Origin: Candidatus Chloroploca asiatica
Lineage (GTDB): Bacteria > Chloroflexota > Chloroflexia > Chloroflexales > Chloroflexaceae
Direction: 5' to 3'
Length of the DNA stretch: 64,000 nt
NCBI RefSeq assembly: GCF_002532075.1
Contig: NZ_LYXE01000182.1
Location: 1 to 64,000 of the forward strand
The notes beneath the pieces were generated by a model that was not told the DNA's origin, ran no database searches, and saw nothing but the letters and a program-made list of their open reading frames with translations. A program made the position numbers and the translations under genes. Numbering within the stretch: the stretch's first letter is position 1; each line of letters starts with the position of its first letter. Positions 1,956-57,984 of this stretch are shown piece by piece.

Positions 1956-4900
1956 ATGCCCTCACTGAAAAAGAAAGCCCTCTCGCTCTACCTTCGTACG
2001 GGCTGCCAGCGCCAGCTTGTGCTCAATCTTTACAATGATGCCGAGCGTCGTGCTAACGGGATGCCCGAACGCCAGCAGGCACGCGCTGGCCTCGGCCTGA
2101 CCGGGGCGATGGGCTATGCATGGCAGGACGAGAAGGTCAGCGAACTGGGCGCGGTCTTTGGCAACGATGCCGTCCATATCAACCCGGTGAAAAAAGGCAA
2201 CCGCCCTGGATCGATCCTGCTCGCAACGGTGCTGCCTCGGCTCAAGCCATACCAGTTTGTGGTTGAGGGGCACTATGACGCGGCCACGCAGACCTTCAAG
2301 GACGCAGTCGGGATCGCGACGCTCCAGGATGCCGCTGGCCAGCCGCTTGGTGTTGGCGACGCGCTGCCCGACCTGATCCAGGTGCTGCCACCGGCGGCCC
2401 ATCCTGCTGCGTGTGAACTGGTGGGGCAGGATCTGGGGCCGGTGGCGACGATGCTGGCCGTGCAGCCAAACGGCGATATCGTTGCGCTCGACCCGGGCGA
2501 TCAGCGGCTGCGCCTGCGTGTTATTGACATAAAGCTCTCGGCGGAGCCGGGGGCGCACTACTTTGCCGAGGTGGTGTACTACTCGATTACGCTGGCGGCG
2601 TGGCTGATCGAGCACCACTGGGCTCAGGACTTCGTCGTGGTCGCCGCACCCGCCGTCTGGCCCGGCTCTTACGACGCCTCGCAGATCCGTCAGGTGCATA
2701 ACCAGTGCCAGAAGGAGGGGCGCAACCCAACCGCTGAGGAACTCGCCCTCGCGCTCGAAGATGATATCGAGGTTGCGCCCTTTGATGCTTTTGCCCCGCG
2801 GCTGCGGCGTTTTTTCCAGGAGGAATTGCCGTTTGTCCTCAATACGCCGTGGGATCAACTGCCCTGGCATGTCTCGCATGCCTGCAAAGGCTGTGAGTTT
2901 CTCGGCTACCCCTGGCTCGACAAGGCTGGCAAGCTGACCAACTCGGCGCTCCACTGCTGGCCGACGGCTGAGGCGCGCCATCATCTGTCGCGTGTGGCTG
3001 GCCTCTCCAAGGGCGGGGCCAAGCTGCTGTGTAGCGATGTGGCCGATGTCACACGGCTTGCTTCACTCTCAGCGGGAGATGCCGTGTTTGAGCGTAGTCC
3101 TTCGCTGCGTGCGAAGCGCACGGTCTACCCCCATCGCGCGCGAGCACTTGAGGCTGATCTGACGGGCATTATCCCGAACTCTGGTGGTGATGCGCTGATG
3201 CCGCGCTGGCCCGATCTGCACATCTATCTCTTTCTCGATTATGATCTTTCGAGCGCGATCACGGCGACCTTCAGTCTCCGTGCCTTCTGGAAAGAGCCGC
3301 TCCCGTTTGGCGCGACGCTCGAGGCGCAACGTCAGCGCTGGGCGGCCCGCCACGAGGGCAAGCCCACCGGCTTTCAAGAGGTTTTTCTGGTTGACCAGCG
3401 CAACCTGACGCGCGAGCGCGAGGAGTTGCTCAAGTTTCTGCGTACGCTGCGCGGCATCATTACGACCGTTGAGCAGCATGATGAACGCGATATCAACGAT
3501 ATGCGGCGCGGCGACGTCAATGAGCCGAAAAAGCTCAAGCGCAGCACGTATCAGATCTATCTCTGGGACGAAGCCCAGCGCAAACAGTTGACCCGTGTGG
3601 TCGGGCGGCATCTGCCAGCGATCCTGGCCGATCCCAACGTGCGCGATCTCGCCTGGCTTTTCCCGCCCCCCGAGCTGCTGACGCACGCGGAAGAGGCCTC
3701 GTACAAATCGTCGTTCACCTTTGTCTCTGCCATTGTGCAGAACACCGTGGCCGTTCCGGTGCCGCACCACTATACCCTGCTGGAAGTAGCCCAAACCTAT
3801 CACCCGGCGAACTTTCCTGAGGTCGCGGTGCATCCGCTCTACCGTGAACCACTGAGCGACCTGATCCCCGGCGAGCGACTGCACGACATGTGGACGCGGC
3901 GCGGCAACTACACCCAAACTCAGCGCACGATTGAGGAGACGGCGGGGCGCAAGTTGCAGGCGCTGGCCTATGTGGTCGCGCAACTCGAGCAGGATCTCAA
4001 AGATCTCCTGGTGCGCGCCGCTGCGCCGCCCTTGGTGCGCAACCTGAAGCGGCTCACTGGCGTACCGCCGCGCAGCATGCTCTGGTACGAATATACCCGG
4101 CTCAACCAGGCGCTGGCCGAGCTCGACGAGCATACGCTGCGCGCGATGCCGGCCCACGAGCGTGAGGCGCGCTTCAAGTCGGCTCATCTACACGAACGGC
4201 TCGAAGACCAGGCGAAGCTTGATGCGCATGATCAGCTTCAGAAGACTGTGCAGCACCCGCTTGATCTGCCGTCCAACCTGTTGATCTACCGGCTCAACCG
4301 CGACTCCTACGAGTTCAATGTCCGCCCGCCGGCCATGGGCTACGCGCTCGCCCCCAAGAGCGACCCGGCGTTTCTGAGCCGGTCGGCCTACCCACTCATC
4401 GACGGCACGGGCATCAAGATCAACGGGCGACTCGCGGGCTCAGTTGCCGAGGCCGGCCTGACCAGGGTCTCGGTGGTCGCGATCGACCGGGTGAAGGGCC
4501 TGATTGCCCTCAAGCTCTGGCACGCCAACTGCGCCCTGGATCTAGAGCGGTTGGGCCTCGCTGATTTTCGCACCGACGTGATGCTCGACCCCGTCGGTGA
4601 CGATTATCTCTCGAAAAAGCTCGCGCTCACGCTTCAGGGCATTGGACGCCCCGCCTCGGCTGGCGAGGATGCCCAGGCGGCCCGCGCCCTGGGGTTGACT
4701 GATCCACATGCGTCGACGGCAACCCCTGAAAGCCCCGCCTCCGCGTTCCTCTGGCAAGCGCCGGTTCTGGCCGCGACGCCCGTTACCCGTGCGACGACCG
4801 CTGCCCAGGCGCGATTGAAGGAGCGCGGGGTAAGTCTCAACCCCTCGCAGTGGGCGGCATGGGAAGCCGCCCTGACCCGACGGCTCGCACTGATCTGGGG

Positions 4901-14776: not shown

Positions 14777-15670
14777 ATGGACAATCGTCAATCAGCACGC
14801 GCCTATGCGCCGAGTAATGTGTCGGCAGGGTTACCCCCTGCCTCAATTGCCGAGTTAACCCATCTCAATACGTCCGATATTTTGACCGCGTTCGGGGTGC
14901 AACGCGAATGGCCGTTGCGTGGCGTGTTTGAGATCCTCTGTCGCCCGGCGGCACAGCGCTTTGCCCGGGAAATCGTGGCGCTCGACCAGTTGGTGGGTTC
15001 CGCTGGTCTGGTGGTTGGTGGAGCCTGGATGGTTGGTCGGTGGGCTGAACGGTTCACGGTGCTGGGTGCGCCACCACCTGATGGGCCGTTGTTGTTGGTA
15101 GCGAACCATCCCGGTATGCTCGATGCGATGGCGCTCTTTGCCGGGATTCAGCGTGAAGATCTGCGAGTGCCGGCGATTACCCGGCCCTTCCTGCGTTGTT
15201 TGCCAAATATCAGGTCGGTCTTGATCCCGGTGGGTGGGCAGCCGGGTGAGCGGGTGGCGGTGTTGCGCACGGCGGCACGGCATATGCGGGAGGGTGGGGC
15301 GATCCTGACGTTTCCAGCCGGTCGGATTGAGCATGATCCGCTGATCGATGCACGTGCCGTCACGGATCTGGCGCACTGGTCAGAGAGCATTGGCCTCTTT
15401 GCGCGCCTGGGTGGTCAGGTTCCGGTTGTGCCGGTGATTGTGGGTGGTGTGATCGCCCCTGAAGCGCTGCGGCATCCGATCATTCGTTTGCGCCGTCGTC
15501 CCGAAGATCAACGCTGGCTGGCCGCGATTTGGCAGTTGTTGCGCCCACAGTTGGGGCGGGTGCATGTGCGCGTCAGCTTCGGGCGTCCATTGTCGTCGAC
15601 GCTTCCCGACCTTGCCGCTGCCGTACGGGCCGAGGCGCGCCGTCTGATCGAAGGGTTGCGTCAAGCATGA
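14777..15670 (+). CDS. PlsC-like glycerophospholipid acyltransferase
   Basis: 297 residues. The acyltransferase HxxxxD motif is present (NHPGMLDAMALFAG, about residues 112-125). The second block is PFLRCLPNIRSVLIPV and a substrate-binding block is GGAILTFPAGRIEHDP. The third (VPVVPVIVGGVIAPEALRHP) resembles the usual glycerolipid acyltransferase fold. The N-terminal 80 residues are longer than in minimal PlsC and contain one hydrophobic stretch (LVVGGAWMVG). It probably acylates lysophosphatidate or a related lipid at the membrane. The next gene, an MFS transporter, starts inside its stop codon, so the pair is an operon. The exact substrate is unknown. Confidence 0.75.
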   Translation: MDNRQSARAYAPSNVSAGLPPASIAELTHLNTSDILTAFGVQREWPLRGVFEILCRPAAQRFAREIVALDQLVGSAGLVVGGAWMVGRWAERFTVLGAPPPDGPLLLVANHPGMLDAMALFAGIQREDLRVPAITRPFLRCLPNIRSVLIPVGGQPGERVAVLRTAARHMREGGAILTFPAGRIEHDPLIDARAVTDLAHWSESIGLFARLGGQVPVVPVIVGGVIAPEALRHPIIRLRRRPEDQRWLAAIWQLLRPQLGRVHVRVSFGRPLSSTLPDLAAAVRAEARRLIEGLRQA

Positions 15671-16887
15671 AGCATGTTCTTGCCCGTGTTCGGCGTGGCT
15701 CGCCCCTGGCAATTGTGTTCGCTTCCGTTTTCATCGATATGCTGGGCTACGGCATGATTGTGCCGCTGCTGCCGTTTCTGGTGCGTGAATATTCCGCAAG
15801 TGCGCTACTCGTTGGTCTGCTCAGTTCGCTCTATGCGCTGATGCAGCTTTTTATGGCCCCGCTACTTGGGGCTGTTTCCGATCGCATCGGGCGTCGTCCG
15901 GTGCTGATTGGCTGCCTCGCTGGCTCGGGTGTGGCGTACCTGTTGCTCGGGCTATCGAATACGCTGGGGTTGCTCTTTCTAGCGGTTGGTCTGGGCGGCA
16001 TGGCTGGCGCTAGTCTTCCGACCGCTCAGGCCTATATTGCCGATACGACCAAGCCGGAGGATCGGGCGCGCGGGTTGGGGTTGATTGGGGCGGCTTTCGG
16101 GCTGGGGCTCATGATCGGTCCGGCCCTGGGCGGGCTCCTGAGCAGCTACGGCCTGGCTGTGCCAGCCCTGGCCGCGGCTGCTTTTGCCGCGCTCAATACC
16201 CTCTATGCTCTGATCGTTTTGCCCGAGTCGCTCCCACCCGAGCGACGGAGCCATCAGCCCTTGCACTTGCGCAACCTGACTGCGCAACTGGCCGAGGCGC
16301 TGACCCTGCGTCGGATCAGGTTGTTGCTGGTGGCGATCTTTTTGCTGAACCTGGCCTTTGCCGGGTTGCAGAGCAACTTTCCGTTGTTCAGTACGGTACG
16401 CTTCGGTTGGGACGTGCTGCAGAACGGGATCTTCTTTGCGTTTGTCGGTGGGTGTGCCGTGGTGACGCAGGGCTTTCTGATCGGTAAACTTCAGCCGCTT
16501 TGGGGCGAGGCACCGTTGGTGCTGGCAGGGTTGGGGTTGATGACGATCGGCTTGCTGTTGATCGCCCTGGCTCCGCAGGCCTGGTTGCTCTATCCACTGG
16601 TGGGCATCATGGCGGTCGGGTTGGGTCTGGCCATTCCCTCGTTGTCCGCACTGGTCTCACAGCGCGCCGGTGAACATCGCCAGGGGGCGGTTATGGGCGG
16701 AACCCAGGCGCTCTTGAGCCTGACCCTGATTATCGGGCCGCTGCTGGCAGGGTTGGCGTTTGATCTGGCCGGGCCGGGTGCCCCGTACTTGCTCGGCAGT
16801 GGGTTGGCCAGCCTCGCGTTTCTGACCGCAGCTGTAACGTTGCGCCCGCTGCGGTCTCCAAGTGAACAGGTCGCTTCGAAAGGCTAG
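15667..16887 (+). CDS. MFS transporter, multidrug/Tet-type
   Basis: 406 residues, about 12 membrane helices. The N-terminal half holds the MFS signature between helices 2 and 3 (GAVSDRIGRRPVLI, about residues 66-79) and the antiporter-type motif C (GAAFGLGLMIGPALGGLL, about 141-158), both typical of drug/H+ antiporters. The ATG at 15667 overlaps the acyltransferase stop (ATGA). Because the partner modifies lipids, the transporter may export a lipid-like or hydrophobic compound, but this is only inference. No sign of truncation. Confidence 0.8.
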   Translation: MKHVLARVRRGSPLAIVFASVFIDMLGYGMIVPLLPFLVREYSASALLVGLLSSLYALMQLFMAPLLGAVSDRIGRRPVLIGCLAGSGVAYLLLGLSNTLGLLFLAVGLGGMAGASLPTAQAYIADTTKPEDRARGLGLIGAAFGLGLMIGPALGGLLSSYGLAVPALAAAAFAALNTLYALIVLPESLPPERRSHQPLHLRNLTAQLAEALTLRRIRLLLVAIFLLNLAFAGLQSNFPLFSTVRFGWDVLQNGIFFAFVGGCAVVTQGFLIGKLQPLWGEAPLVLAGLGLMTIGLLLIALAPQAWLLYPLVGIMAVGLGLAIPSLSALVSQRAGEHRQGAVMGGTQALLSLTLIIGPLLAGLAFDLAGPGAPYLLGSGLASLAFLTAAVTLRPLRSPSEQVASKG

Positions 16888-16908
16888 CGCCAACGCCTTG
16901 CAAAGAAA

Positions 16909-16989
16909 GTTGACGCAAAGGCGCAAAGGTGCAAAGCTGAGTATGTAGATCCATCAAACCTTCGCGCCTTTGCGCCTTTGCATCAAAAT
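16909..16989. repeat. GACGCAAAGGCGC palindromic repeat, copy 1
   Basis: TTGACGCAAAGGCGCAAAGG begins the copy and TTTGCGCCTTTGCATCAAAA closes it, with a spacer containing GATCCATCAAA. The same element lies in reverse orientation at 19429-19502, and a half copy is at 259-293. The copies flank the ribA-glycosyltransferase-PTPS segment. Confidence 0.75.
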
Positions 16990-17035
16990 TACGACTGTTT
17001 TTTGTCAGAAAGCACAGATGAAATGAGGATCCCCA

Positions 17036-17638
17036 ATGCTTGAGGGTTTGCGACCTATTGTGAACGTTGTTGCCAGCACTACGCTTCCGACCCGTTATGG
17101 CGTATTTCAGATGCATGTGTATGTTGATGATAATGGCTTGGAGCATGTCGCGCTGGTCGTCGGTGAGCTCGCCGGTTCCGCACCGGTGCTGGTGCGGTTG
17201 CACTCTGAGTGCTTGACCGGCGACGTGTTTGGGTCGCAGCGTTGTGATTGCGGCGAGCAGTTGCAGCAGAGCATGAGCGAACTCCAGGCGGCGCAGCGGG
17301 GCGTATTGCTCTATCTGCGGCAAGAGGGGCGTGGCATCGGGTTGGTGAATAAGATTCGTGCGTATGCGCTGCAAGAGACCCAGGGTCTGGATACGGTCGA
17401 TGCCAATCGGGCCTTGGGTTTGCCTGACGATATGCGCGAGTATAGTCGGGCCGCCGCTATTCTAGCCGACCTTGGTGTAGATCGGGTGGCGCTGATGACC
17501 AATAATCCGCTGAAGATCCAGGATCTGCAACAGCACGGGATCGTTGTTGTCGAGCGTTGTGCGGCGCACGTGCTGCCGAATGTCCATAACCAGCCGTATC
17601 TTCAGGCTAAGCGTGAACGCATGGGGCATTTGTTCTAA
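17036..17638 (+). CDS. ribA: GTP cyclohydrolase II
   Basis: 200 residues, the size of stand-alone RibA. The zinc-binding cysteines and active site are intact in HSECLTGDVFGSQRCDCGEQ (about residues 61-80). The substrate loop LRQEGRGIGLVNKIRAYALQ (about 99-118) and the LMTNNPLKI motif (about 154-162) are also present. The enzyme opens GTP to 2,5-diamino-6-ribosylamino-4(3H)-pyrimidinone 5'-phosphate, the first riboflavin step. It is convergent with a minus-strand set holding a RibD-type reductase, FolB and a PTPS homolog, which suggests it could feed a second, pterin- or pyrimidine-like pathway. A strong hairpin terminator begins in its stop codon. Confidence 0.93.
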   Translation: MLEGLRPIVNVVASTTLPTRYGVFQMHVYVDDNGLEHVALVVGELAGSAPVLVRLHSECLTGDVFGSQRCDCGEQLQQSMSELQAAQRGVLLYLRQEGRGIGLVNKIRAYALQETQGLDTVDANRALGLPDDMREYSRAAAILADLGVDRVALMTNNPLKIQDLQQHGIVVVERCAAHVLPNVHNQPYLQAKRERMGHLF

Positions 17639-17668
17639 ATGCGTGCAAGCTGTGCTTGCACGCATTTA
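17636..17668 (+). terminator. Hairpin terminator overlapping the ribA stop codon
   Basis: TAAATGCGTGCAAGC (17636-17650), loop TGT, then GCTTGCACGCATTTA (17654-17668) form a perfect 15-bp stem that includes the ribA stop codon. The T-tract is weak. Confidence 0.65.
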
Positions 17669-17721
17669 GAAGGGAGGGAGGGGGTTTTTCAGGGAGGGCA
17701 AGCCCTCCCTGGGACCCTCCC

Positions 17722-17954
17722 AGGGCGATTGCATCATACGAAATCGGATACAACGGGGTACCCGCAGGGGGTACCCGTACCGGGGTGGGGCACCCGCAAG
17801 GGGTGGGGCACCCGCAAGGGGTGGGGCACCCGCAAGGGGTGGGGCACCCGCAAGGGGTGCCCCTACAGGGCCGGGGGGCGCGCCCGATGTAGGGGCACCC
17901 CTTGCGGGTGCCCTTGCGGGTGCCCTTGCGGGGTGCATACACGGAAGATGCAAT
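17722..17954. mobile_element. MITE-like hairpin element, copy 2, with 17-bp target duplication
   Basis: It starts AGGGCGATTGCATCATACG and ends CGGAAGATGCAAT. The core repeats GGGGTGGGGCACCCGCAA about four times before more GCACCCCTTGCGGGTGCC words. CTCCCTGGGACCCTCCC flanks it directly on both sides (17705-17721 and 17955-17971). The right duplication touches the last base of the glycosyltransferase stop codon, so the insertion fell exactly at a gene end. Confidence 0.78.
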
Positions 17955-17970
17955 CTCCCTGGGACCCTCC

Positions 17971-19017
17971 CTACCGCTGTCGCGCTGCGTGCAACGCATC
18001 CAACACTTGTGCCGCCGTGTCGTCCCAGGTGGGTAGCTGGGCGACACGGGTGCGGGCTGCTGCCGCCATTTGCGTGCGTTGCGCCGGGTCGTTCAAGAGT
18101 TGGCGCAGCGCCGCGACTAGGTGGGTGAGGTTCCCCGGCGCAGTCAGAATGGCTGCCTCGGGGCCGACCAGGCTGGGAACGGGGCCGACGGCATAGGCGA
18201 TAATCGGGAGCCCATGGGCTAGCGCTTCGGCAAAGACCAGTCCGTACCCTTCGTAGCGTGACGGCAGGACGAACAGGTCGGCGCGGCGATAGGCCGCAAC
18301 CAGTTCGTCGTCACTGATCGGGCCGTGTACGACGATTGAGTCTGTTGGTGCGCGCGCAATGGCGGCTTGGACTGTGCGGGTATAGCCCGGGTCAACGTCG
18401 GTCTCCCCGATCAACTCCAGCCGCGCCCCCTCCGGTGCGGCCTGGCTCCACGCTCGTACCAGGTCGAGAATGCCTTTGCGCGGAATCCACTGGGCAACGC
18501 AGAGCGCCGTCAGGGGGTGTTTGCTGGAACCCTCGGCTGGCGGTGCGGCTAGCGACGTGAGCCGATCGTAGCCGCCGGGTGCGACCGTGATCCGCTCTGG
18601 TGCAACCCCCCGATCTTCAAGGATGTGCCGCCCGTGCTCGCTGACGGTGATTAGCCAGTCGGCCCGTAACAGCGGTGCCTCCAGTTCAAGATCGCCGACA
18701 GACACGCCTTCGGCCCCGGCGACGCTGGGGAGTTCGTGAACCAGCGCTACTAGAGGGCGGACGGCGCGCCAGCGATCGGCCCAGTGGGCGCAGAGGCCGC
18801 GTGCCAGGGCATCAATCAGCAGTAGATCGTAGGCGGTCGGGTCGAAGCCGCCAAGTTTCGGGGCCGCAATGAGCTGCGCAGCGAGATCGGCGCCACTCGG
18901 AACAAGCTCAGTGATGGTAACCCCCCCCTTTTGCAAGCGAGCGAAGATTTCACGGTGGTAGAGGTAGCCACCGGTCATACGTTGGGTGTCACCGACGGTC
19001 AGGCATGCAACATGCAT
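17971..19017 (-). CDS. GT4-family glycosyltransferase
   Basis: 348 residues. The C-terminal GT-B half shows the GT4 donor site: LTALCVAQWIPRKGILDLVR, then ADLFVLPSRYEGYGLVFAEA with the family EX7E glutamates (about residues 257 and 265). The N-terminal TGGYLYHREI fits the acceptor domain. It starts inside the stop codon of the PTPS homolog (TGATG overlap), so the two are translationally coupled. The context suggests glycosylation of a pterin or related heterocycle, as in the pterin glycosides known from phototrophic bacteria. A cell-wall or lipid acceptor is equally possible on sequence alone. The enzyme fold is firm, the substrate is not. Confidence 0.82.
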   Translation of the reverse strand: MHVACLTVGDTQRMTGGYLYHREIFARLQKGGVTITELVPSGADLAAQLIAAPKLGGFDPTAYDLLLIDALARGLCAHWADRWRAVRPLVALVHELPSVAGAEGVSVGDLELEAPLLRADWLITVSEHGRHILEDRGVAPERITVAPGGYDRLTSLAAPPAEGSSKHPLTALCVAQWIPRKGILDLVRAWSQAAPEGARLELIGETDVDPGYTRTVQAAIARAPTDSIVVHGPISDDELVAAYRRADLFVLPSRYEGYGLVFAEALAHGLPIIAYAVGPVPSLVGPEAAILTAPGNLTHLVAALRQLLNDPAQRTQMAAAARTRVAQLPTWDDTAAQVLDALHAARQR

Positions 19018-19391
19018 CAGAACTGATCCTCATAGGCGGCATAGGCATCGGGGTTTTCCCAAATGCGTACCGTAAGGGTGACGATTGGACTGCCCTGCAA
19101 GGCCTGGGCCAGCCGCTGCCAGCAATAGTGGGCCAGGTTTTCGGCTGTCGTATTGATCTGCGCCAGCCCGGGCACATCGGCGAGGTCGCGGTAATGCAGG
19201 TCGTTGACGATGGCATCGAGCGCCGTTTGCAGGCGCGTGATATCGATCAGGGTGCCGTCTGGTTGCAAACGCGGCCCGCGGATCACCACCTCAATGCGGT
19301 AGGTGTGGCCGTGCATACGTGTGGCCGGGCCGAAGTCGCCAACCAGGCGGTGAGCTGCTTCAAAACGGGCACTTACACCAATTTCAAACAT
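19017..19391 (-). CDS. 6-pyruvoyl-tetrahydropterin synthase/QueD homolog lacking the catalytic Cys
   Basis: 124 residues. The zinc-binding histidines of the PTPS/QueD fold are intact: AAHRL (His about 16) and MHGHTY (two His, about 28-30). The family's catalytic cysteine, normally four residues before the HGH in the pattern C-x-R-L-H-G-H, is replaced: the protein reads PATRMHGH. It is not the Glu seen in PTPS-III enzymes either. The LHYRDL segment keeps the downstream His. So it is probably not a standard QueD or PTPS. GAGGGGCAAC just upstream supports the ATG. It is coupled to the glycosyltransferase. Confidence 0.82.
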   Translation of the reverse strand: MFEIGVSARFEAAHRLVGDFGPATRMHGHTYRIEVVIRGPRLQPDGTLIDITRLQTALDAIVNDLHYRDLADVPGLAQINTTAENLAHYCWQRLAQALQGSPIVTLTVRIWENPDAYAAYEDQF

Positions 19392-19428
19392 TGTTGCCCC
19401 TCATGCAATAGCTTGCACATAAGACGGG

Positions 19429-19502
19429 TAGTTTGACGCAAAGGCGCAGAGGCGCGAAGTTTTGATGGATCGGCATGCCCAGCTTTGCGCCTTTGCGTCA
19501 AT
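19429..19502. repeat. GACGCAAAGGCGC palindromic repeat, copy 2 (reverse orientation)
   Basis: AGTTTGACGCAAAGGCGCAG opens and CTTTGCGCCTTTGCGTCAAT closes the copy. Reverse-complemented, it aligns along its whole length, including the GATCCATCAAA spacer, with 16909-16989. Confidence 0.75.
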
Positions 19503-19513
19503 GGTGTTGCCCA

Positions 19514-19621
19514 GGCCCGCCCTTGTCACCCCGAACGAACGTGAGGGGTCTTCCATGACGATCAGTGCAGATTCCTCACTGCGCCTGCGGCTTCGTTCGG
19601 CATGACCGCAGAGGCGTTGCG
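19514..19621. repeat. 108-bp dispersed repeat, copy 1
   Basis: GGCCCGCCCTTGTCACCCCG begins a 108-bp sequence that recurs almost unchanged at 49649-49756. Internal words GAACGAACGTGAGGGGTC and GCGGCTTCGTTCGGCATGAC are partly self-complementary. It has no coding potential. Confidence 0.8.
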
Positions 19622-19685
19622 AACGGTCGAAGCCTGAGCCGGTCGAAGCCCCCTTTGGTATCAAAAAACGTAAGTTACACACTAC

Positions 19686-20705
19686 TCAATTATACCTGAT
19701 GACGACCTGCACGACCTGCTCGGGTTGTGCGTCGATCAGCCGGTAGGCATCGGCGATCCGGGCGAACGGTATGTGATGGCTAATGAGCGGTGCCAGTTGG
19801 AGTTGCGGCAACCAGGCGAGCACCGTCTCCCAGCGCCGACTATGATCCCAGCGCGCTGTCACTTCGGGGCTGAGTTGGCCCACCTGCGACGAGCGCAGGG
19901 TGATCCGTCCGCGGTGAAAATGCCCGCCCAGGTCAAGTTGCACTGGTTTGTGTCCGTACCATGAGCCGACGACCACACTGCCCTCGGGCATGACGCATGC
20001 GATGGCCGTCTGGAGTGCCGCCGGTGAGCCGCTGACTTCAACGGCGAGGTCGGCGCCCCGGCCCCCATTCAGTTCGCGGATCTGCTCTGGAAGCGTCGGC
20101 GCCGGCGCCAGTGCAACGTCGGCACCGACCTGCAACGCCAGCGTGCGCCGCGCCGGGACAGGTTCAACCACAATGATCTGGGCCGCACCGGCTCGTTTGA
20201 GCAACTGCACGACGAGCAACCCGACCACGCCTTGCCCAAAGACGATCGCGGTCTCGCCAAGGTTGATCCGTGCATCGTGAACCAGGTTGATGGCGGTTTC
20301 AGTATTGGCGGCGAAAACGCCCAATTCCGGTGTTAGTTGGGCCGGTAAGCGCCGACAGAGATCAGCCCCGATGCAGAAGTGGCTCTGGTGCGGATGCAGG
20401 GCGAAGACACGATCCCCCGTTGCGAGCGACGTCACCGCTGAACCCACCGCCGTGATTTCGGCGACACAGGCATAGCCGAACTTGATCGGGAAGCCGAAAC
20501 CGCCCGCCAGGGTCGGCAGATCCAGCGGCAACTGCGGGTCTACTTCGCCTCGATAGACCAGCATTTCTGTGCCGTGGCTGATCGCCGACGCGCGTACAAC
20601 GGCCTGCACCTGACCGGGGCCGGGCAGGACCAGCGCCTCGTCACGGAACTCAACCTGGCGAGGTGCGCTGAACCAGGCTGCGCGAGCCGTTGTTGGTGGC
20701 GTCAT
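19686..20705 (-). CDS. Medium-chain dehydrogenase (BchC-like variant, no catalytic zinc ligands evident)
   Basis: 339 residues. The MDR Rossmann fold is clear: VFGQGVVGLLVVQLLKRAGA with GxGxxG (about residues 155-160), followed by IIVVEP. The usual zinc ligand region (ICGTDxH) is replaced by SAISHGTEMLVYRG, the SGTE signature seen in BchC-like and related dehydrogenases without a standard catalytic zinc. It overlaps the RibD-type reductase by four bases and is last in a four-gene operon. It may reduce or oxidise the side chain of the pathway's intermediate. BchC itself is less likely, since no bacteriochlorophyll gene is nearby. Confidence 0.75.
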   Translation of the reverse strand: MTPPTTARAAWFSAPRQVEFRDEALVLPGPGQVQAVVRASAISHGTEMLVYRGEVDPQLPLDLPTLAGGFGFPIKFGYACVAEITAVGSAVTSLATGDRVFALHPHQSHFCIGADLCRRLPAQLTPELGVFAANTETAINLVHDARINLGETAIVFGQGVVGLLVVQLLKRAGAAQIIVVEPVPARRTLALQVGADVALAPAPTLPEQIRELNGGRGADLAVEVSGSPAALQTAIACVMPEGSVVVGSWYGHKPVQLDLGGHFHRGRITLRSSQVGQLSPEVTARWDHSRRWETVLAWLPQLQLAPLISHHIPFARIADAYRLIDAQPEQVVQVVIRYN

Positions 20706-21397
20706 GGCGAACCAGTTTCTGTTGCCGAGCCGACGTGCCGGTAGCGTAGATGGCCTTCGATGATCAGATCAACCCCATAGTGCGTCAGCGTGACTCCTTC
20801 CAGCAGACATGCGTCATCCAGGTGCTCAATGCCCAGGTCGCCAACCGCTGCGATCCCCGTGCCGAGGATCTTCGGGGCCACCGTGAGCGCCAGGCGATCG
20901 GCGAGGCGGTGACGCAACAGGCTGGTGATCAACTGCGCGCCGCCCTCAACCATCAGCGTAGCAATGCCTCGTTCGGCCAGGATCGCGAGCAGGTACGCCA
21001 GATCGACCCGCCCATCAGCCAGGGCCGGCGTCTCGATCAGGGTGACCCCGCATTCGGCAAGCTGCACACGGCGTTGCTGCGGTGCAGCACTGGTACAGGC
21101 GATCAGCGTGCCGACAGCGGCCCCGTCGCGCAGAACGGCTGCGTTGTCTGGTAGCCGCAAGCGGCTATCGACAATCACGCGTAACGGATCGGTACCGGGC
21201 ACCAGGCGTACCGTCAGGCGAGGATCGTCGGCCAGCACCGTACCGACCCCGACCATCAGCGCATCGCTCGCCGCCCGCAGTTCATGGCTGAACCGCAACG
21301 ACTCAGTTCCGCTGATCCACTGCGAGCTGCCGCTACGCGTCGCCAACCGCCCATCGAGGGTCTGCGCATAACTCAGCGTGACAAGTGGGCGGCTCAT
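20702..21397 (-). CDS. RibD C-terminal-type reductase (DHFR fold)
   Basis: 231 residues, only the reductase half of RibD. Diagnostic blocks are SYAQTLDGRLATRSGSSQWI (N-terminus), DALMVGVGTVLADDPRLTVR (about residues 46-65), PLRVIVDSRLRLP and LMVEGGAQL (about 144-152). These bind NADPH and the ribosylamino-pyrimidine or a folate-like substrate. The deaminase half of RibD is absent. Overlaps of four bases with both FolB and the MDR gene give tight coupling. Being next to FolB, it may act as a pterin reductase instead of the riboflavin enzyme. ribA on the opposite strand supplies the substrate type this family uses. Confidence 0.85.
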   Translation of the reverse strand: MSRPLVTLSYAQTLDGRLATRSGSSQWISGTESLRFSHELRAASDALMVGVGTVLADDPRLTVRLVPGTDPLRVIVDSRLRLPDNAAVLRDGAAVGTLIACTSAAPQQRRVQLAECGVTLIETPALADGRVDLAYLLAILAERGIATLMVEGGAQLITSLLRHRLADRLALTVAPKILGTGIAAVGDLGIEHLDDACLLEGVTLTHYGVDLIIEGHLRYRHVGSATETGSP

Positions 21398-21765
21398 CCG
21401 CGCCGCCGTACAATCTCGACGACCGAACCGTCGAGGATCGTATCTTCGAGGCGCACCCAGGGTTTCGTAACCTGCACCTGAACGGCCTGAACGCGGAGAT
21501 GGTCGGCGAGCACAGCAGCGGCGATCCGCTCAGCGACAGCTTCGGTCAACTGCAGCGGCTCACCTTCAACAATCTGGCGCGTGCGCTGGTGAACCTGACT
21601 ATAATCAACCGTCTGCTGCAAATCGTCGGTGCGCCCGGCAGCCTGCAGATCAAGAAAAAGGGTCACATCGACCACGAACTGCTGTCCGAGGCTACGTTCC
21701 TCAGGTCGGGTACCGTGGTAACCGACAAAACGCATGCCGCGTAGATGGATTTTATCGAGTTCCAT
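21394..21765 (-). CDS. folB: Dihydroneopterin aldolase family protein
   Basis: 123 residues, the usual FolB length. The signature FVGYHGTRPEERSLGQQFVV (about residues 13-32), VDYSQVHQRTRQIVEG, the LTEAVAERIA helix and the catalytic lysine in VTKPWVRLEDTI are all present. FolB cleaves or epimerises dihydroneopterin in tetrahydrofolate synthesis. No folP, folK or folE is in the window, and the gene is embedded with RibD-type, MDR and methyltransferase genes, so a non-folate pterin is possible. It overlaps the reductase gene by four bases and the methyltransferase by one. Confidence 0.88.
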   Translation of the reverse strand: MELDKIHLRGMRFVGYHGTRPEERSLGQQFVVDVTLFLDLQAAGRTDDLQQTVDYSQVHQRTRQIVEGEPLQLTEAVAERIAAAVLADHLRVQAVQVQVTKPWVRLEDTILDGSVVEIVRRRG

Positions 21766-22619
21766 TATTCAGCCACCAATCCGTACATCAACGGAATCTT
21801 GGGCACATCATCAGGCGGATAATACCGGCGCTGATCATCAAGCCGCATCCGCGCAAAGGGCTTCTCGCCATTCACATAAAAGAACTCTTGCAAGCGGCGA
21901 ATACGCAGACCCGCAGCGGCGAAGGCACTGACGATCTCGCCGATACCCCAGCGATAGAGATGGCACTGGTGTGGATTGACGAAGTCACGCACACCCTCGG
22001 CGAAACCACCAGGACTGAGCCCGCCGCCGGCGGCCCCGACATAGTCGCCGACACCATCAAGTGTCAGCAACTCTCCACCGTGGGGATAGTTATAACGCAG
22101 CCGCCATTCGGGATCGAACATATTCGACGTCGGATGAAACTCAACCAGCACAAACCGCCCCTCCGGTGCCAGGATCGCCGCCACACCGCTGGCGAAGGTG
22201 GCGAGATCGCGGAGCCAGCAGATCGCCCCATACCCGCAGTAGATCCGATCGAAGGAGAGACCCGCATGGGCCGCTGCGCTCAAATAGGCATACACATCGG
22301 CCTGCACAAAGGTGGCCTGTAAGCCGGTCGCCTCAGCCAGGGAGCGAGCATACGCAATCGCGGCATCGCTCAGATCGACGCCGGTAACAGTCGCCCCAAG
22401 GCGATTGAAGCTCAGGCTCTCGTGGCCGGTATTGCAAAACAGATGCAGCAGACTACGGCCCGTCATCTCGCCGAGCAAGGCCAGTTCTTCCGGAAAGACC
22501 GTCAAGCCACCTGTGCGCAGATAGTGCTGCAACCCCGGCCGATGGCTGGCATGGGCCTCAACCGCCGCATTCCATGAATGCCGATTATGTTCGGCTGCAA
22601 CCCCAGAATCCACCGTCAC
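21765..22619 (-). CDS. Class I SAM-dependent methyltransferase
   Basis: 284 residues. The SAM motif I is a variant, LLHLFCNTGHESLSF (about residues 56-70), followed by TGVDLSDAAIAYA (motif II). DVYAYL and a post-motif FDRIYCGYGAICWL complete the fold. It lacks nucleic-acid-binding extensions and resembles small-molecule methyltransferases. It is the first gene of the minus-strand operon MTase-FolB-RibD-type-MDR, with one-base overlap into folB. A methylated pterin or a related heterocycle is the plausible product from context. The ATG at 22619 was taken because no better start follows. Confidence 0.75.
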   Translation of the reverse strand: MTVDSGVAAEHNRHSWNAAVEAHASHRPGLQHYLRTGGLTVFPEELALLGEMTGRSLLHLFCNTGHESLSFNRLGATVTGVDLSDAAIAYARSLAEATGLQATFVQADVYAYLSAAAHAGLSFDRIYCGYGAICWLRDLATFASGVAAILAPEGRFVLVEFHPTSNMFDPEWRLRYNYPHGGELLTLDGVGDYVGAAGGGLSPGGFAEGVRDFVNPHQCHLYRWGIGEIVSAFAAAGLRIRRLQEFFYVNGEKPFARMRLDDQRRYYPPDDVPKIPLMYGLVAE

Positions 22620-57829: not shown

Positions 57830-57984
57830 CGTCAACCTCCCGTCTTTGCAAAGGATCCTCGCACCCCCCCTGTCATTCCCGCACACGCGGGAACCCAGAC
57901 CACCGTCCCGCTCCAAACGTTGCGCCATTGCGCCATTGCGTCAAAAGGTAGTGGCCCTCACCCCCACCTTGACGCGTATGCACG

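Follow-up and report, generated by a model that had tools for sequence, protein, structure and literature searches.

The window analysed here is the whole of a 64,000-nucleotide stretch of contig NZ_LYXE01000182.1 of Candidatus Chloroploca asiatica (genome G000, 5.84 Mb). It contains nine genes that we tentatively propose, with a confidence that falls just short of even, to form a dedicated route, with no need of GTP cyclohydrolase I, that starts from GTP and yields a pterin-type compound which is glycosylated and methylated and may also be acylated. That the genes make up a single pathway, in which RibA and a RibD-type reductase are dedicated successive steps, is strongly supported; the dedication of RibA to this pathway, not to riboflavin, and entry by opening of the imidazole ring of GTP are both well supported. 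The nine genes, with domain calls from Pfam and NCBIfam profiles, are as follows.

14777–15670, plus strand: PlsC/OlsF-like acyltransferase (AcylT), probable accessory gene (PF01553)
15661–16887, plus strand: MFS transporter (DHA1/Tet-like), probable exporter of the product (PF07690, 214 bits)
17036–17638, plus strand: RibA, GTP cyclohydrolase II, proposed first step (PF00925, 225 bits; TIGR00505, 241 bits against a cut-off of 205.85)
17971–19017, minus strand: GT4-family glycosyltransferase (PF00534, 94 bits; PF13692)
19017–19391, minus strand: PTPS-IV subfamily protein with the QueD fold and no catalytic cysteine (PF01242, 114 bits)
19686–20705, minus strand: MDR dehydrogenase, proposed ribityl 2'-OH oxidase (PF00107, 82 bits)
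20702–21397, minus strand: stand-alone RibD-type reductase, RibD_C (PF01872, 178 bits; TIGR00227 above cut-off; TIGR01508, 149 bits)
21394–21765, minus strand: FolB, dihydroneopterin aldolase (PF02152, 117 bits; TIGR00525, 105 bits against a cut-off of 72)
21765–22619, minus strand: class I S-adenosylmethionine-dependent methyltransferase (MT), GTG start, conserved first gene of the operon (PF13649/PF08241)

RibA, FolB and the entry from GTP

Three Chloroploca genomes (G000–G002) each have a single GTP cyclohydrolase II, the RibA of the operon, and none of the three has a lumazine synthase (RibH, PF00885). The same association holds across the phylum. Among 251 Chloroflexota genomes that are at least 90% complete, 90 have no lumazine synthase; of these, 20 have the operon MDR (called at E below 1e-100, about ten genera), and 19 of them keep RibA, as against 6 of the 70 without that MDR (Fisher P = 2e-13, a value that ignores shared ancestry). 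These tallies use genome tables covering every genome with a match, and one of the six RibA-keeping genomes (G279) has a truncated MDR match. Most closed Chloroflexus-group genomes, in which lumazine synthase is present, have in addition to the stand-alone RibA another gene, long and of RibBA type. The three zinc cysteines and the catalytic tyrosine of RibA, which we take to be equivalent to Tyr105 of Escherichia coli, are conserved in 30 of 30 sequences.

RibD_C (231 residues) matches PF01872 only and lacks the N-terminal deaminase domain of bifunctional RibD; its conserved residues are intact. At seven loci (L072, L086, L088, L089, L092, L109 and L114) RibA and RibD_C are joined in one open frame, likewise free of deaminase. 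GTP cyclohydrolase III, an enzyme unrelated to RibA, acts on GTP in the same way, by opening its imidazole ring. It (IIa/III, PF05165, 276 bits in Haloarcula pelagica) precedes MDR in place of RibA in at least three clusters on haloarchaeal plasmids, and in two of these PTPS and MT accompany MDR. It is because of these fusions and this replacement that we regard entry by ring opening as well supported.

FolB fits dihydroneopterin aldolase both by family score and by its predicted Glu/Tyr/Glu/Lys set, the residues E23, Y55, E75 and K101 being present in 35 of 35 sequences. Of 41 relatives, 11 have FolB, and the operon PTPS is present in 10 of these 11 (P = 9e-6); FolE is found in 35 of the 41, so FolB tracks the operon and not folate synthesis; it is missing from most genomes of the order that have FolE and HPPK. 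One genome that is 98% complete (G027) has the full operon including FolB and no FolE, FolE2 or HPPK, and five others with the same gene order (G069, G071, G072, G074 and G077, completeness undefined) have no FolE or FolE2. In such genomes the substrate of FolB should come from the RibA branch. The original prediction had stated that no folate partner genes are present. This holds for the window, which has no FolE, and fails for the genome, where FolE and a weakly HPPK-like gene lie elsewhere. Independent occurrence of the genes in relatives, which the prediction had named as the finding that would speak against it, is not what is seen: FolB, RibA and PTPS/MDR co-occur statistically.

Two further genomes show other arrangements of these families. 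In G016, which has neither PTPS-IV nor lumazine synthase, a stretch of about 3 kb (contig C79, 5513–8726) contains FolB, FolE and a stand-alone RibA; here RibA is part of a different cluster, of folate type. The single-contig genome G030, of the same order, has lumazine synthase and no PF00925 GTP cyclohydrolase II.

Organization and recurrence of the gene set

The six minus-strand genes run in the order MT, FolB, RibD_C, MDR, PTPS, GT4 (22619 down to 17971), and AcylT, MFS and ribA (14777–17638) on the plus strand converge on them. Coding overlaps of 1–4 nt at the MT/FolB, FolB/RibD_C, RibD_C/MDR and PTPS/GT4 junctions make the six look like a single coupled unit; MDR and PTPS are the only separated pair of the operon, with a gap of 294 nt that holds an interspersed repeat. 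Every gene of the predicted arrangement, ribA facing an operon of MT, FolB, RibD_C, MDR, PTPS and GT4, is found in place with the matching Pfam family. The acyltransferase and MFS genes upstream of ribA, which the prediction had missed, belong to the set. The methyltransferase matches only generic Pfam and NCBIfam families, and to judge by sequence GT4 is generic as well.

The operon proteins are about 90–98% identical to their counterparts in Ca. C. mongolica and strain Khr17. The search of other genomes that had been called for finds MT-FolB-RibD_C-MDR-PTPS-GT4 facing RibA, in this order or one close to it, in many genomes at about 50–97% protein identity; around PTPS orthologues in relatives the same order with a converging RibA is seen in several genera. 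Chance clustering was rejected, the gene order being conserved across many genomes. The set recurs in Chloroflexus, Oscillochloris and Rubrobacter and its core genes in Rhizobiales and on haloarchaeal plasmids; the occurrence in Rubrobacter, Rhizobiales and haloarchaea makes the suggested link to phototrophy a weak one. A profile scan for the MDR protein across 84,980 species gave 80 loci, most with PTPS, GT4 and RibD_C beside MDR. Mis-binning of metagenome-assembled genomes (MAGs) may affect single organism names among these loci; the main conclusions are carried by isolate plasmids and closed Chloroflexus-group genomes.

Three closed Chloroflexus-group genomes have the operon genes together and in order (one with a second PTPS-GT4 copy), and in all three AcylT-MFS-RibA forms a conserved trio sited away from the six-gene operon. 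The conservation of this trio apart from the operon indicates that the acyltransferase and exporter belong to the pathway, which is then arranged in two units. G020 has the module in three separate places, AcylT-MFS-RibA (L036), MT, RibD_C and MDR (L152) and PTPS-GT4 (L158), and FolB is absent; clustering is thus not obligatory. In Rubrobacter the order is altered (AcylT and FolB divergent, MT after GT4) and the content largely unchanged, with AcylT adjoining the core. The Rubrobacter group is nested within the Chloroflexales group in the MDR tree (support 100/99), which together with the shared content suggests that the whole set was transferred between the two. Fusions of GT4 and MT in a single open reading frame at three Rubrobacter loci (L055, 9394–11289; L059, 6029–7927; L071, 9289–11313) link glycosylation and methylation as late steps.

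Enzymes of lipid type differ from lineage to lineage. Chloroflexales and Rubrobacter have the PlsC-like AcylT, and a CDP-alcohol phosphatidyltransferase lies in the clusters of Rhizobiales (L119, L122), an Anaerolineae MAG (L105) and haloarchaea (L134, L138, L140, L143). This hints, weakly, at a membrane-linked product. On the Haloarcula marismortui plasmid (L134) a creatininase-family gene and the phosphatidyltransferase (2230–2988 and 3685–4458) lie near an MDR-GT4-MT cluster; the creatininase family includes the archaeal formamide hydrolase ArfB. In Palleronia the genes for RibA, MDR, PTPS, MT and a member of the RibD family follow one another, and one resembling inositol monophosphatase is close by.

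The intergenic regions of the window carry repeats. Copies of an interspersed palindromic repeat, TTGACGCAAAGGCGCAAAG and its reverse, lie at 16910–16986, 5' of ribA, and at 19433–19501, between MDR and PTPS, with further copies of this type at 265–283 and 57926–57944. The window holds 6 matches where 0.02 would be expected, and the repeat resembles a small mobile element or one of REP type. Within the gap that separates the converging genes ribA and GT4, at 17764–17913, there is an 18-nt tandem repeat, GGGGTGGGGCACCCGCAA, of about 4–5 units, accompanied by a 26-nt perfect inverted repeat. A scan for promoters and terminators gave signal no higher than in shuffled sequences.

The PTPS-IV protein and the MDR dehydrogenase

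As the original prediction had noted, the window PTPS has no catalytic cysteine. In alignment with canonical QueD-type sequences the motif CxxxHGH reads AxxxHGH (GPATRMHGH), the cysteine being replaced by alanine, and the score against the QueD profile TIGR03367 is 62.6 bits, below the cut-off of 89.25. Neither the CxxxxxHGH motif of PTPS-II (biopterin) nor the ExxHGH motif of PTPS-III (folate) is present. Supply of queuosine, folate or riboflavin was rejected on motif, genome content and co-occurrence. Residue roles were assigned after established work on QueD and PTPS. The zinc histidines are largely retained (His14 in 65 of 66 sequences, His27 in 66 of 66, His29 in 57 of 66), and the pterin-anchoring Glu112 is present in all 62 aligned sequences that cover the position. 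The Asp-His relay pair of QueD is replaced by His66-Tyr67 in the window protein. Most PTPS homologues of the operon have FGPA followed by T, Q, S or N, the window protein having FGPAT. The predicted model (pLDDT 96) superimposes most closely on SCO6650 of Streptomyces coelicolor (PDB: 3D7J, Z-score: 19.0, 1.3 Å over 124 residues), followed by QueD with bound sepiapterin (Z-score: 17.4, 1.6 Å over 115 residues). The simplest reading of the model would be a pterin-type pocket with a different chemistry.

By signature and by neighbours the window protein appears to belong to the PTPS-IV subfamily of COG0720, which counted 561 sequences in 2017 (PMC5445326). The subfamily was described there as AGeNNT cluster 62, with the signature FGPAQ, no CxxxHGH, and PF00925 and PF01872 as neighbours; the window protein shares the signature, taken as FGPA[Q/T], and has both neighbours. 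PMC5445326 refers to PF00925 as FolE2, and Pfam defines it as GTP cyclohydrolase II. In the portions available, PMC5445326 and PMC5041015 assign PTPS-IV no pathway, and PMC5041015 mentions an unpublished link to coenzyme F420. The claim that the enzymes differ from known sets therefore stands in comparison with the pterin glycoside pathway of FolE and PTPS-II and does not stand for the PTPS subfamily with its RibA/RibD_C neighbourhood, which was on record. New here are the dedication of RibA, the RibA-RibD_C fusions, the replacement by GTP cyclohydrolase III, FolB without FolE, the extended set with its FolB, MT, AcylT and MFS partners and a concrete route, all of which go beyond what these two papers report in the parts consulted.

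SCO6650, listed as uncharacterized, is 36% identical to the window PTPS and has FGPAQ; unlike the window protein it has HGA for HGH, with loss of one zinc histidine. SCO6655, a GTP cyclohydrolase II paralogue of S. coelicolor, stops at the formamidopyrimidine; the window RibA has the normal tyrosine.

The nearest structural neighbours of the MDR protein are polyol and threonine dehydrogenases (iditol, sorbitol, arabinitol and xylitol; Z-scores 34–36, 2.1–2.5 Å over about 310 residues). From its residues it is a Zn-free variant with a conserved set of its own, namely Glu47, His106, His264, Arg267 and Gln274.

Proposed route and alternatives

In the route that we propose, RibA would open GTP to give 2,5-diamino-6-(phosphoribosylamino)pyrimidin-4-one, the ribosyl chain of which would be converted to a ribityl chain by the RibD-type reductase without deamination, with the pterin-type 2-amino group retained (2,5-diamino-6-ribitylaminopyrimidinone phosphate). 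The MDR protein, a candidate member of the polyol-dehydrogenase branch, would oxidize the 2'-OH to a ketone. The resulting 1-amino-2-ketose is the intermediate that GTP cyclohydrolase I reaches by Amadori shift, and its ring closure with the 5-amino group would give 7,8-dihydroneopterin phosphate. Ketose formation and ring closure would account for the presence of both a reductase and a dehydrogenase alongside RibA. PTPS-IV, which lacks the cysteine relay and would have a pterin pocket, may then reshape the side chain, joined in this lineage by FolB; GT4 and the methyltransferase would decorate the product, and the acyltransferase and MFS protein may acylate and export it. We infer the reduction and reoxidation at the ketose step, the place of the side-chain step in the order and the identity of the product as a pterin.

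Several observations weigh against this route. The ligands of the catalytic zinc in polyol dehydrogenases, Cys, His and Glu, are replaced in MDR by Ser43, Tyr78 (77 of 77 sequences) and Ala79 (69 of 77); with all of them lost, alcohol oxidation by MDR is not assured, and its structural ranks are close (polyol dehydrogenases at Z-scores of 34–36, other MDR proteins at 33). Divergent PTPS-IV members lose one zinc histidine (HGA in Rhizobiales and in SCO6650). Many of the genomes without FolE are MAGs of undefined completeness, and the FolE of Chloroploca, outside the window, could provide a substrate there. FolB is absent from some Chloroflexales (G020, G037) and from the inspected archaeal and rhizobial clusters, so its step would be optional, an add-on.

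The same RibA/RibD_C pathway could instead lead to a glycosylated and methylated product with no pterin ring, such as a 2,5-diaminopyrimidinone with a modified polyol chain, a deazapurine or another heterocycle. We consider this unlikely, though a serious contender: PTPS-IV has none of the relay residues of the characterized PTPS types, core clusters without FolB are common and a pterin-specific enzyme is hence not universal, and QueD, of the PTPS fold, also works in a deazapurine route. The pterin-anchoring glutamate and mostly retained zinc site of PTPS-IV argue the other way, as do the FolB of the Chloroflexota/Rubrobacter version, catalytically intact by its residues and of a family whose known members act on dihydropterins, and the inspected clusters, in which no QueE or QueC is seen. 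If the pterin derived from dihydroneopterin triphosphate made by FolE, with RibA and RibD_C giving a separate pyrimidine part or a signal, the FolE gene found elsewhere in Chloroploca and in most operon genomes would have a role; this is quite improbable, since no FolE is seen in the inspected clusters, where RibA, its fusion with RibD_C or GTP cyclohydrolase III recurs beside MDR-PTPS, and neither FolE nor FolE2 is present in six relatives that have the operon together with FolB.

Service to coenzyme F420 or another deazaflavin appears very improbable. Several host lineages of the cluster make F420 and the intermediates of RibA and RibD_C feed deazaflavin synthesis, which count in its favour, as does the statement on unpublished data in the part of PMC5041015 available. 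Such a product requires a deaminated pyrimidine, for which neither the cluster nor the fusions hold a deaminase. The annotated neighbourhoods show no FbiC/CofG-like gene (F420 genes were not searched genome-wide), and GT4, MT and FolB are not F420 enzymes. We give almost no credence to ordinary riboflavin, folate or queuosine genes lying together by chance. RibA, RibD_C, FolB and PTPS do all come from vitamin- or queuosine-pathway families, and against this stand the genome's lack of lumazine synthase, a PTPS that fails both the QueD motif and the QueD cut-off, the absence of FolB from most FolE/HPPK genomes of the order and the fact that Chloroflexus-group genomes have, apart from the stand-alone RibA, a long gene of RibBA type.

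The observation behind the original prediction is thus confirmed and its interpretation partly supported. What had been proposed was synthesis of a glycosylated, methylated pterin or related heterocycle; a dedicated pathway, distinct from both folate and queuosine synthesis, is upheld, glycosylation and methylation are predicted by sequence, and the choice of a pterin over another GTP-derived heterocycle does not follow. A wider form of our proposal, in which bacteria and archaea share a FolE-free route that reduces and reoxidizes the RibA product and yields a membrane-associated (acylated or phospho-linked) pterin glycolipid, seems distinctly unlikely.

The proposed route has partial counterparts. 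Chlamydia-type bypass of FolE combines RibA with TrpF, an isomerase making the 2-ketose. Pterin would come there, as proposed for the window, from the RibA product without FolE; the window route differs in using a reductase and dehydrogenase pair, not an isomerase. Pterin glycoside pathways of cyanobacteria and Chlorobium start at GTP cyclohydrolase I and use a Cys-containing PTPS. Unlike them, the window has RibA, RibD_C and MDR at the entry and a PTPS of type IV. The closest functional analogue is nevertheless the pterin-acting glycosyltransferase of those pathways (cyanopterin, limipterin, tepidopterin; PMC3546692, PMC5683033). A literature search found no description of this operon pathway, and a 2026 review of bacterial pterins gives, in the part available, entry by FolE only. 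If correct, the proposed route would provide a function for the large orphan PTPS-IV subfamily, explain the retention of ribA in genomes without riboflavin synthesis and define a second route to pterins.

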